NCBI GenBank assembly: GCA_903869725.1
Contig: CAIQAD010000018.1
Span: forward strand, 1-37,097
Reading direction: 5' to 3'
DNA length: 37,097 nucleotides
Source of the DNA: an uncultured Alphaproteobacteria bacterium
Lineage (GTDB): Bacteria > Pseudomonadota > Alphaproteobacteria > Pelagibacterales > Pelagibacteraceae
Part shown: piece after piece, positions 14,941 through 27,962 of the stretch
Layout: every line of letters begins with the position of its first letter
How positions within the stretch are numbered: position 1 is the first letter of the stretch
Notes under the pieces: model-generated
The model's input: the letters and a program-made list of their open reading frames with translations, nothing else
What the model was told of the DNA's origin: nothing
Database searches by the model: none
Made by a program: the position numbers and the translations under genes

Positions 14941-16275
14941 ATGAAATTTTTTTTAATTCTTTTGTTATTTTTTGTACTGGCATGTTCGTCTAATAAAGAA
15001 GTAGTTGATTTAGACCTTTTTAGAAAAGGTGAAAAAATTAATGTAAATAACATTGATAATATTTTTAACAAAGAAATTGAAGCAAAAAATACATTGCAAC
15101 TTTCTATACCTCAAATAAATAAATCTTCAGATTATGAATTTTGTCGATCCAACAACTTATGTCCCCATTTTGTTTATGAAGGTTTATTTACGGACGTAAA
15201 TGAAAAAAGCATTGGAAGCTATATTAATAAAAATAATAAAAACGGATCAATAGTAGCATCTAACAATAGTATTTTTTTTAGCGATGAAAAGGGAAATATT
15301 TATAACTATGATTATGTAAATAATAAAATTATTTGGGAAATTAAAATTTACGATAGTACATATAATAGTATACCAAAAAATATTTCATTACTTGTAAATA
15401 ACAATTACTTATTTGCATCAGATAATCTTGGCTATATTTATTCTATTGATGTAAAAAATGGTAAAGTAGTATGGCAATCTAATTATGGCGTTTCTTTTTC
15501 GTCAAATTTAAATCTTTATAAAGATATTTTGTATGTAACAAATCAGAATGGACGATTGTATTCTTTTAATTCAGTTGACGGTCAAAAGTTAATAAGTTTT
15601 GAGACTTTATCAGGAATTATAAATGCCAAAAAAGATAATATTTCAATATTTAATAATGTATTAGTTTTTTCAAATGATGTAGGCAATGTAACAGCTTTAG
15701 ATTTAGATAAAAAAAAAGTTCTGTGGTCTAAAAATATTATTTTACAAAATTATTTAAATGCAAACAAAGTCTTTAGCATTTCAAACATTCTTATTGATAA
15801 TAGCAATGTTTATGTATCCTCAAATCTTGGGGATCTTTATTGCGTTCAAATTGATACAGGAATAGTCAAATGGTCATACCATTTTTTATCGAGTCAAAAT
15901 CATATAGTTAACGAAACTTACTTATTTGTTTTAACTGATAATGGATATGTAGTTGCATTCGATAAAAATAAAGGAAATATTCTTTGGTCTACCAATATTA
16001 ATAAAACACCTTCAAATATTGAAGTTTCAAAAAGTTTTTTTAGCATATCTGATGATAAGAAAGATATTAACGAAATTAACTTTTATGGTTTAATTCTTGG
16101 ATCAAATAATCTTTATTTAACTTCTTCTGACGGATTCTTATATAAGATTTCAGCAACAGAGGGCAAACTCATTTTAAAAAAGAAAATAAACGATCAGTTA
16201 ACGAGAGCTCCTATCATTATTGATAATAAATTAATTATAATTAACAATTCTGCTTCTTTGATATTGATTAATTAA
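14941..16275 (+). CDS. bamB: Outer membrane protein assembly factor BamB (lipoprotein)
   Basis: 444 residues. A lipoprotein signal peptide with lipobox VLAC puts the lipidated cysteine at position 15. The remainder is a PQQ-type eight-bladed propeller, seen as repeated blades of the form ...GKVVWQSNYG, KKKVLWSKNI, TGIVKWSYHF, KGNILWSTNI with intervening 'SxxGxLYS.D' strands. BamB is an outer-membrane-anchored periplasmic subunit of the BAM complex, which folds beta-barrel proteins such as TolC and LptD (both in this window). Flanked by the YfgM-like gene and der, the conserved neighbourhood. It overlaps der by one base (TAATG). Confidence 0.92.
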   Translation: MKFFLILLLFFVLACSSNKEVVDLDLFRKGEKINVNNIDNIFNKEIEAKNTLQLSIPQINKSSDYEFCRSNNLCPHFVYEGLFTDVNEKSIGSYINKNNKNGSIVASNNSIFFSDEKGNIYNYDYVNNKIIWEIKIYDSTYNSIPKNISLLVNNNYLFASDNLGYIYSIDVKNGKVVWQSNYGVSFSSNLNLYKDILYVTNQNGRLYSFNSVDGQKLISFETLSGIINAKKDNISIFNNVLVFSNDVGNVTALDLDKKKVLWSKNIILQNYLNANKVFSISNILIDNSNVYVSSNLGDLYCVQIDTGIVKWSYHFLSSQNHIVNETYLFVLTDNGYVVAFDKNKGNILWSTNINKTPSNIEVSKSFFSISDDKKDINEINFYGLILGSNNLYLTSSDGFLYKISATEGKLILKKKINDQLTRAPIIIDNKLIIINNSASLILIN

Positions 16276-17120
16276 TGGACATTCCCTTAATTAAAAAAGT
16301 AATTACAGTTGCTATTGTCGGCAAGCCAAACGTTGGAAAATCAACCTTTTTTAATAAAGTTGCAAAGAAAGAAATATCGCCGATAAGTGAAATACCAGGA
16401 ACTACAAAAGATATATTTATAGAAGAAATTACTTTTAAAAATAGAAAATTCAGAGTTATTGATTCTGGCGGTTTAAAAAGAAAAGCTAAATCCAAATCTG
16501 ATGATCAGCAATATATTACAAAAGAGAGTTTAAAAGCTATAGAGCTTTCAGATATTGTTTTTTTTATGATCGAGGCGGATAAAGATTTTACTAAGACTGA
16601 TAAACAAATCTGCAGATTAGTTTTAGACAAAGGTAAAGGTTTAATTTTTATAGTTAATAAAATTGATTTAGTAGATGAATTAAAAAAAATTAAAGATGAG
16701 TATGTTTATAATATCAAAAATTTATTTTCTGATGCAATATTAGATAAACCGTATTCAATTTGTGCTTTAAATTTAGATTTTCCTAGCAATATATTTAGCG
16801 CTGCTATTTCAATTTATAAAAATTTAAAGAATCATTATGATAATAAAATTTTGAATTCGACTTTAAAAAGTATCGTAGAGCAAAATAAAATACCAATTTA
16901 TTCACGATTTAGACCAAAAATAAAATACATTAAGCAAGTGAGTTCGCGACCAATAATTTTTAAAATTTTTGGTAATCAGGTTAATAAAATTTCTCTAGAT
17001 TATCAGAAATATATATTAAAGAATTTGTGCAAAAAATTAAATATAAGAGGTTTTAAAATATTTTTAAAATTTATAAGTTCTGAAAATCCATTTCAAAGTA
17101 AAAATAAAAAGAAATATTAA
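16275..17120 (+). CDS. der: Single-GTPase-domain form of ribosome-assembly GTPase Der/EngA
   Basis: 281 residues, whereas Der is usually about 440-490 with two GTPase domains in tandem and a KH-like domain. Here one GTPase domain is present: G1 GKPNVGKS (16-23), G2 PGTT (41-44), G3 DSGG (63-66), G4 NKID (128-131), G5 near SICAL. A C-terminal KH-like domain follows at about 205-270 (IIFKIFGNQVNKISLDYQKY). The post-G3 KRKAK segment, LKAIE.SD and the direct join to KH resemble the second domain (GD2), while the GG of G3 recalls GD1. I see no frameshift: upstream sequence codes for BamB, with a TAATG junction. The bamB-der order supports the Der identity over another TrmE-Era-like GTPase. Der acts in late 50S assembly; how one domain would suffice is unknown. 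Confidence 0.85.
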   Translation: MDIPLIKKVITVAIVGKPNVGKSTFFNKVAKKEISPISEIPGTTKDIFIEEITFKNRKFRVIDSGGLKRKAKSKSDDQQYITKESLKAIELSDIVFFMIEADKDFTKTDKQICRLVLDKGKGLIFIVNKIDLVDELKKIKDEYVYNIKNLFSDAILDKPYSICALNLDFPSNIFSAAISIYKNLKNHYDNKILNSTLKSIVEQNKIPIYSRFRPKIKYIKQVSSRPIIFKIFGNQVNKISLDYQKYILKNLCKKLNIRGFKIFLKFISSENPFQSKNKKKY

Positions 17121-27119: not shown

Positions 27120-27359
27120 ATGAGTGATGTTGCGGCAAAAGTAAAAAAAATAATCATAGAACATTTAGGTGTTGACGAGGCAAAAGTAACGGACGAAGCA
27201 AGTTTTATAGATGATCTAGGCGCAGATAGTCTAGATACAGTAGAATTAGTAATGGCATTTGAAGAAGAGTTTGGAGCTGAAATATCAGATTCGGAAGCTG
27301 AAAAAATTCTAACAGTTGGTGATGCAATTAGATTTATTGAGAACAACTCTAGTAAATAA
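27120..27359 (+). CDS. acpP: Acyl carrier protein
   Basis: 79 residues, acidic, four-helix bundle. The phosphopantetheine attachment serine is Ser37 in [11 protein letters not shown]. Carries acyl chains in fatty-acid synthesis and for lipid A and phospholipid acyltransferases. A strong AAGGAG supports the start. In most alphaproteobacteria fabF follows; here gmk begins after six bases, in the same frame as acpP with only one stop codon between. Confidence 0.98.
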
Positions 27360-27365
27360 TTATTT

Positions 27366-27962
27366 TTGCCATTTCCGTCTAGAAAAGGATTAATCTTAAT
27401 CTTATCTTCTCCCTCAGGAGCAGGAAAAACTACATTAGCTAAAAAAATTTCATCAACTGATGAAAATTTTAAGTTATCAGTTTCTTGTACGACTAGATCT
27501 CCACGTTCAAATGAAATTGAAGGAGTTGATTATAATTTTATTAAAGAAGACAGATTTAAAAAATTATTATTAGAAAATAAATTCTTAGAGTCCGCATTAG
27601 TATTTGGCAATTATTACGGAACATTAAAAGCTCCTATAGAAGAAGAATTGACGAAAGGTAAAGATTTTATTTTTGATATTGACTGGCAAGGAACTGAGCA
27701 AGTTAAAAAAATATTAAAAAAAGATATAGTGACAGTATTTATTATGCCTCCTAGTTTAGAGGAATTAGAAGACAGGTTAAGAAATAGAGAAGAAAAAAAT
27801 TTTGAATTCATAAAAAAACGTATGATGATGGCAAAAGAAGAAATTAATCATTGGAAAGATTATAATTATATTTTAGTTAACAATGAAATTGAAAACTCAT
27901 TTAGGTCAATAAACCAAATTATTAAAATTGAACGAGAAAAAAGATACAATAAATTTAATTAA
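27366..27962 (+). CDS. gmk: Guanylate kinase
   Basis: 198 residues. It phosphorylates GMP to GDP. The P-loop SSPSGAGKTT begins about residue 14, then SCTTRSPRSNEIEGVDYNFI for GMP binding, and FDIDWQGTEQVK. The start is TTG: the frame is open only back to the acpP stop at 27357, and no ATG lies before the P-loop. There is no Shine-Dalgarno, so initiation probably depends on ribosomes ending acpP. The 3' end overlaps the convergent rsmA by 8 nt. It acts directly after GuaA in guanine nucleotide synthesis. Confidence 0.95.
   Translation: MPFPSRKGLILILSSPSGAGKTTLAKKISSTDENFKLSVSCTTRSPRSNEIEGVDYNFIKEDRFKKLLLENKFLESALVFGNYYGTLKAPIEEELTKGKDFIFDIDWQGTEQVKKILKKDIVTVFIMPPSLEELEDRLRNREEKNFEFIKKRMMMAKEEINHWKDYNYILVNNEIENSFRSINQIIKIEREKRYNKFN

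Follow-up and report, generated by a model that had tools for sequence, protein, structure and literature searches.

Der (also EngA or YphC) is a GTPase of ribosome assembly which, like Era and EngB, is regarded as near-universal and as essential in model bacteria. Its two tandem G domains are treated as its defining feature. Can a Der protein operate with only one of them, and how would such a protein have originated? The question is raised by a locus in a stretch of 37,097 nucleotides (contig CAIQAD010000018.1 of assembly GCA_903869725.1; the window) from an uncultured alphaproteobacterium of the Pelagibacteraceae. It belongs to the SAR11 order, whose cells are some of the most abundant in the ocean. 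The gene, here called der', codes for a protein in which, according to a sequence-only reading of the window, a single GTPase domain is joined to a KH-like domain. We consider der' to be a Der orthologue which by one loss of the first GTPase domain (GD1) was cut to the second GTPase domain and the KH domain (GD2-KH), and which most likely is still a GTPase of 50S assembly (probability about 0.78).

The der' protein and its locus

The features of der' are as follows.

16275 to 17120, plus strand: der', single-GTPase-domain Der/EngA (GD2-KH), 281 amino acids, covering only positions 174-431 of TIGR03594
16320 to 16343, plus strand: G1 (P-loop) GKPNVGKS, residues 16-23, invariant save for V/S in 22 relatives
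16461 to 16472, plus strand: G3 DSGG, residues 63-66, followed by a GD2-like LKRK
16656 to 16667, plus strand: G4 NKID, residues 128-131, the guanine specificity motif
16845 to 17072, plus strand: KH-like domain of Der (PF14714), residues 191-266, one match above the Pfam gathering score (E 4.3e-15)

The open reading frame is intact from its ATG start to its TAA stop. TIGR03594, the model of two-domain Der with 432 positions, was matched in its second part only and with 204 bits, below the cut-off of 306.7. MMR_HSR1 matched once, at residues 11-129. Tandem GTPase domains were thus absent, as they were in all relatives in the order. The G1, G3 and G4 motifs of a GD2 were all present; according to the literature, the Asn of G1 coordinates K+ in EngA/MnmE-type GTPases. 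In an alignment of 22 single-domain Ders from SAR11 the P-loop, G3, G4 and KH positions were retained although identity went down to 27-32%. Compared with the orthologue of genome G003, non-synonymous divergence (dN) was 0.18 and synonymous divergence (dS) 1.56; the ratio of about 0.12 is a rough value as dS is near saturation. Judged by these comparisons, der' is under purifying selection. An AlphaFold2 model (predicted local distance difference test, pLDDT, 82.9; predicted template modelling score, pTM, 0.81) aligned with Bacillus subtilis EngA (2HJG) across GD2 and KH, with Z 25.2 and a root-mean-square deviation of 3.1 over 254 residues. der' is predicted to fold like the GD2-KH part of the B. 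subtilis protein. The domain composition and the motif positions proposed by the sequence-only reading were therefore borne out. It had also described G3 as mixing features of GD1 and GD2. Literally this is true; however, relatives carry DTGG, DLGG, DVGG or DTPG at this site, and DSGG speaks for divergence and not for a hybrid domain.

The window is part of a 1.08-Mb draft genome (55 contigs, 96.8% complete). Besides der' it encodes the GTPases Obg, YchF, Era, MnmE, IF-2, TypA, LepA, EF-Tu, EF-G and FtsY, with EF-Tu and EF-G assigned by length and reading. Era is a separate protein with 195 bits against TIGR00436 (cut-off 116.25); der' matched this model at residues 11-152 only, with 68.5 bits, and does not qualify as Era. 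Neither a second Der nor an isolated GD1 nor EngB was found in this 96.8% complete draft. The MMR_HSR1 inventory of single-contig relatives corresponded to its GTPase list. No stand-alone GD1 was present in the inventories of this genome and of complete relatives, and none was detected by a motif scan of the near-complete G003 sequence, of which 2.5 kb, in the 23S rRNA gene, were masked by N. As no full-length Der was found in the draft, der' is not a paralogue of one. A sequencing deletion or other assembly error at the junction was ruled out by recurrence of the same architecture in related genomes, several of them single contigs. Recurrence and selection also disfavour a pseudogene. A viral copy was considered as well; no relative of der' was found in viral contigs, and matches in phage collections, below 60% identity, resemble two-domain bacterial engA copies.

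The gene is tightly enclosed by its neighbours.

14941 to 16275, plus strand: bamB (PF13360), encoding an outer-membrane assembly lipoprotein, the complete upstream neighbour, 1-base overlap with der'
16273 to 16277, plus strand: TAATG, stop/start overlap of bamB and der', leaving no space for a GD1-coding segment
17121 to 18572, minus strand: purF, the convergent neighbour, which adjoins bamB directly in the Der-less genera g2, g3, g5, g8 and g10

Because a complete bamB overlaps the 5' end of der' and the stop of the convergent purF abuts its own stop, no missing Der half is hidden here, in agreement with the initial claim. In the genera g1, g7, g9 and g12 of family f1, to which the window belongs (g and f are our handles for genera and families), the gene order is bamB>der'><purF<cvpA. 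In OCS116 (L243) a two-domain der of 445 amino acids adjoins bamB and is convergent with purF, and at about 20 alphaproteobacterial loci Der is located 3' of purF on the opposite strand. Because full-length der shares these surroundings, der' is, by position and sequence, a true Der orthologue in place at the ancestral bamB-der-purF locus. In genera g2, g3, g5, g8 and g10 the order is bamB><purF with few bases between; der is gone without a trace. At the Pelagibacter-type loci L151, L156-L159 and L162 (g4) bamB is also missing beside purF. Elsewhere in the window (27120-27962), gmk directly follows acpP; fabF and yicC, expected near acpP/gmk in many proteobacteria, are not in between.

Distribution and history of losses

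We surveyed 298 genomes of the SAR11 order (Pelagibacterales) with a completeness of at least 80%. In none of the 298 was the cut-off for full-length Der reached; in a sample of the class 275 of 289 genomes and in a sample of the phylum 295 of 299 exceeded it. Open frames of about 270-289 amino acids with GD2-KH architecture were present in g1, g7, g9 and g12 of family f1 and in g15-g17 of family f2, and within these genera almost every genome, in either family, has retained the gene. Genera g2-g5 comprise 262 genomes without Der; the best match was MnmE (about 450 amino acids). With a SAR11-specific Der profile built from the 22 single-domain proteins, complete genomes of g2-g5, g6, g8 and g10 yielded only MnmE, Obg, YchF, TypA and other translation factors. 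From sequence identity, g4 was taken as Pelagibacter and the order as Pelagibacterales (SAR11): purF of 'Candidatus Pelagibacter ubique SCGC AAA795-D22' is 93% identical to that of a g4 genome, and Pelagibacteraceae single cells also matched. Three f2 drafts (G068, G073 and G084, 81-91% complete) had no Der match, which we took as gaps. In a further f2 genome der' is split into two open frames of 158 and 131 amino acids (G069:C32:18247-19072, L032), by a frameshift or a sequencing error.

Family f27 was examined as a second single-domain lineage and rejected, its weak score being that of a diverged two-domain protein. Its Der (G368, G557, G625; L112-L114; L238:5904-7154; 1.4-Mb genomes) has 417-425 amino acids and a GD1 without the NKxD (G4) motif. 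Perhaps f27 corresponds to HIMB59. Genome G368 of this family also lacks era (lepB-rnc-recO), possibly a parallel to SAR11. Outside SAR11, a 1.2-Mb alphaproteobacterial genome (G492, family f124, a 50-contig draft, 100% complete) contains Era but yielded no match to Der; either the gene was lost there independently or the draft has a gap.

Era exceeded its cut-off in each of the 14 tested SAR11 genomes with a single-domain Der and in not one of the 14 tested without Der, a co-occurrence that represents one or a few events on the tree and not 28 independent cases. Single-Der genomes have the order lepB-rnc-era-recO-parC, whereas Der-less genomes have lepB-rnc-recO wherever rnc was found (g2, g4, g5, g6 and g10). 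The 3' end of 16S rRNA known as the Era recognition sequence is GATCACCTCC. In its place stands GATTACCTCC in G003 (L331:13478) and G015 (L393:8816), of which one is Era-bearing and one Era-less. EngB exceeded its cut-off in 0 of 17 SAR11 genomes as against 6 of 6 other alphaproteobacteria. For bacteria of the Candidate Phyla Radiation (CPR) a dependency between der and uL1 was reported (PMC12641178). A joint loss of uL1 and der of this kind was ruled out, as rplA (uL1) is retained in G000 and G015, one Der-bearing and one Der-less genome.

In a purF tree {g1, g7, g9, g12} and {g2, g3, g4, g5, g8, g10} are sister clades (Shimodaira-Hasegawa-like approximate likelihood ratio test, SH-aLRT, 91 and 92); f2 branches outside both. 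Two sequences of other orders fall among those of SAR11, suggestive of purF transfer. Transfer among marine alphaproteobacteria is also suggested by the purF genes of the f27-like AG-899-C14 (L238; 78% identity to Pelagibacter) and of G477 (L153), the latter nested in SAR11. In a GD2-KH tree from which f27 and f122 were left out, the single-domain Ders of f1 and f2 were monophyletic (support 100/99). Since the two families share this clade, a single loss of GD1 is probable, dating from the last common ancestor of the order or earlier. The simplest history would be a loss of GD1 before the split of f1 and f2, with der and era each lost once afterwards in the Pelagibacter lineage. With the losses in this order the single-domain Der would be an intermediate step: SAR11 would have halved Der first, and the Pelagibacter branch would have deleted Der and Era later. 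Quite probably, the layer of Era/Obg-family GTPases was dismantled stepwise, EngB and GD1 being lost by the time of the order ancestor and Der and Era in the Pelagibacter clade, with Obg left. That Obg alone remains refers to the Era/Obg-family assembly GTPases tested; no search was aimed at RsgA or HflX.

What a single-domain Der may do

On the E. coli 50S subunit, GD1 of Der is near the L1 stalk, GD2 occupies the P-site space and KH points towards the peptidyl-transferase centre (PMC13278734). In B. subtilis EngA, GTP is hydrolysed faster by GD1, with stimulation by K+; GD2-KH in isolation is active and K+-stimulated too, but at a lower rate (PMC3466195). For E. coli EngA at 42 °C it was reported that either one functional domain is dispensable (PMC3466195). 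By analogy, GD2 and KH of der' in the GTP form would dock on the immature 50S subunit, KH towards the peptidyl-transferase centre and GD2 in the P-site space. K+-assisted hydrolysis at the single remaining site would then drive release. GD2 hydrolysis would gate KH docking, and with the L1-stalk contact of GD1 missing a simpler on/off cycle would result. der' may thus be a GD2-gated KH chaperone of late 50S assembly without an L1-stalk sensor. This cycle of ribosome binding and hydrolysis is inferred; a simplified ribosome-assembly switch, as suggested at the outset, still appears to be the best reading.

Several points weigh against a single GD1 loss or against a functional switch. Once the long-branched f27 and f122 sequences were included in the GD2-KH tree, a single origin was only not rejected (approximately unbiased, AU, test, p = 0.505), so that GD1 may instead have been lost twice in parallel. 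The near-saturated dS mentioned above belongs here, too. A plant DER without GD1 moved partly from 50S to 30S fractions (PMC3883289), and in E. coli a der deletion is not rescued when the P-loop of either domain is mutated, as cited in PMC3883289 for Bharat et al. (2006). In view of these effects, plants and E. coli do not lose GD1 without consequence. Finally, deletion of the whole gene in relatives shows that der' is not indispensable; it may be marginal already.

The last point leads to the notion that der' is a decaying, nearly dispensable remnant which was crippled by the loss of GD1 and is on its way out under weak selection. The sister clade has indeed deleted der completely without a visible substitute, the single-domain Ders have long branches, and even the GD1 of f27 has lost its G4 motif. 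Yet G1, G3, G4 and KH residues were kept across 22 deep relatives, dN is only a small fraction of dS, and hardly any genome of the bearing genera in either family is without the gene. We therefore consider a remnant unlikely. Could two copies of der' cooperate, as a homodimer or as two molecules per 50S subunit, one of them taking the part of GD1? The G domain and KH of der' are both complete, and the related MnmE pairs its G domains with K+; however, B. subtilis EngA displayed neither a K+-promoted dimer nor cooperativity (both PMC3466195), which makes such a pairing improbable here.

Two further explanations concern GD1 itself. It might be supplied in trans by another protein such that the two-domain architecture is regained in a complex, as was also contemplated in the sequence-only reading. 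We found no point in favour, and the inventories listed only Obg, YchF, Era, MnmE, der' and translation factors, in agreement with the G003 scan; the proposal is extremely unlikely. Alternatively, in-frame crossing-over from one P-loop to the other may have joined the start of GD1 to the remainder of GD2; DSGG and a GD1-like N-terminus would thereby be accounted for. When only alphaproteobacterial sequences served as reference, about the first 34 columns of the f1 proteins did look GD1-like, by 17-18 bits. With a wider reference this signal dropped to -2.5 to -12 bits, and the f2 proteins were GD2-like there (+1 to +18). A true but diverged GD2, that of f27, scored -7.7; divergence alone can therefore produce a GD1-like signal. 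A crossover is very unlikely, and from these comparisons the G domain of der' is a GD2, with a hybrid origin not supported.

Relation to known systems and meaning

With Der/EngA/YphC (TIGR03594; E. coli Der on the 50S subunit, 3J8G; B. subtilis YphC, 2HJG and 4DCU) der' shares GD2 and KH, the G motifs, the fold and the domain arrangement, and the bamB-der-purF neighbourhood is common to der' and full-length Ders. It differs by lacking the whole GD1, by its length of 281 instead of about 440-490 amino acids, by its DSGG and by a score below the family cut-off. Era (TIGR00436) likewise consists of 270-300 amino acids with a single GTPase domain and, after it, a KH-type RNA-binding domain; however, der' matches only by its G domain (residues 8-191), below the cut-off, its KH is that of Der, and a true Era exists separately in the same genome. 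CPR bacteria, too, lose the ribosome-assembly GTPases der and era in lineages with small genomes (PMC12641178). In contrast, the SAR11 losses occurred in free-living Pseudomonadota, via a single-domain stage and with uL1 kept. SAR11 is not mentioned in the text of that study, nor Pelagibacter in a 2023 review of Era, and no earlier account of a one-domain Der, or of the losses in SAR11, was found in the open papers searched.

The losses in SAR11 bear on the claim of 2025 that repertoires of this kind are peculiar to CPR bacteria (PMC12641178). Two domains, one domain and none constitute a natural series in which every deletion is precisely recorded in the genomes, the latter two states occurring within the SAR11 order. 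The role of GD1 thereby becomes open to test, as do the minimum number of GTPases with which a free-living cell can build ribosomes and the possibility that assembly GTPases become dispensable through slow growth or altered rRNA. If true, both ribosomal subunits in the Pelagibacter clade would be built with Obg as the only known remaining assembly GTPase of the Era/Obg family.
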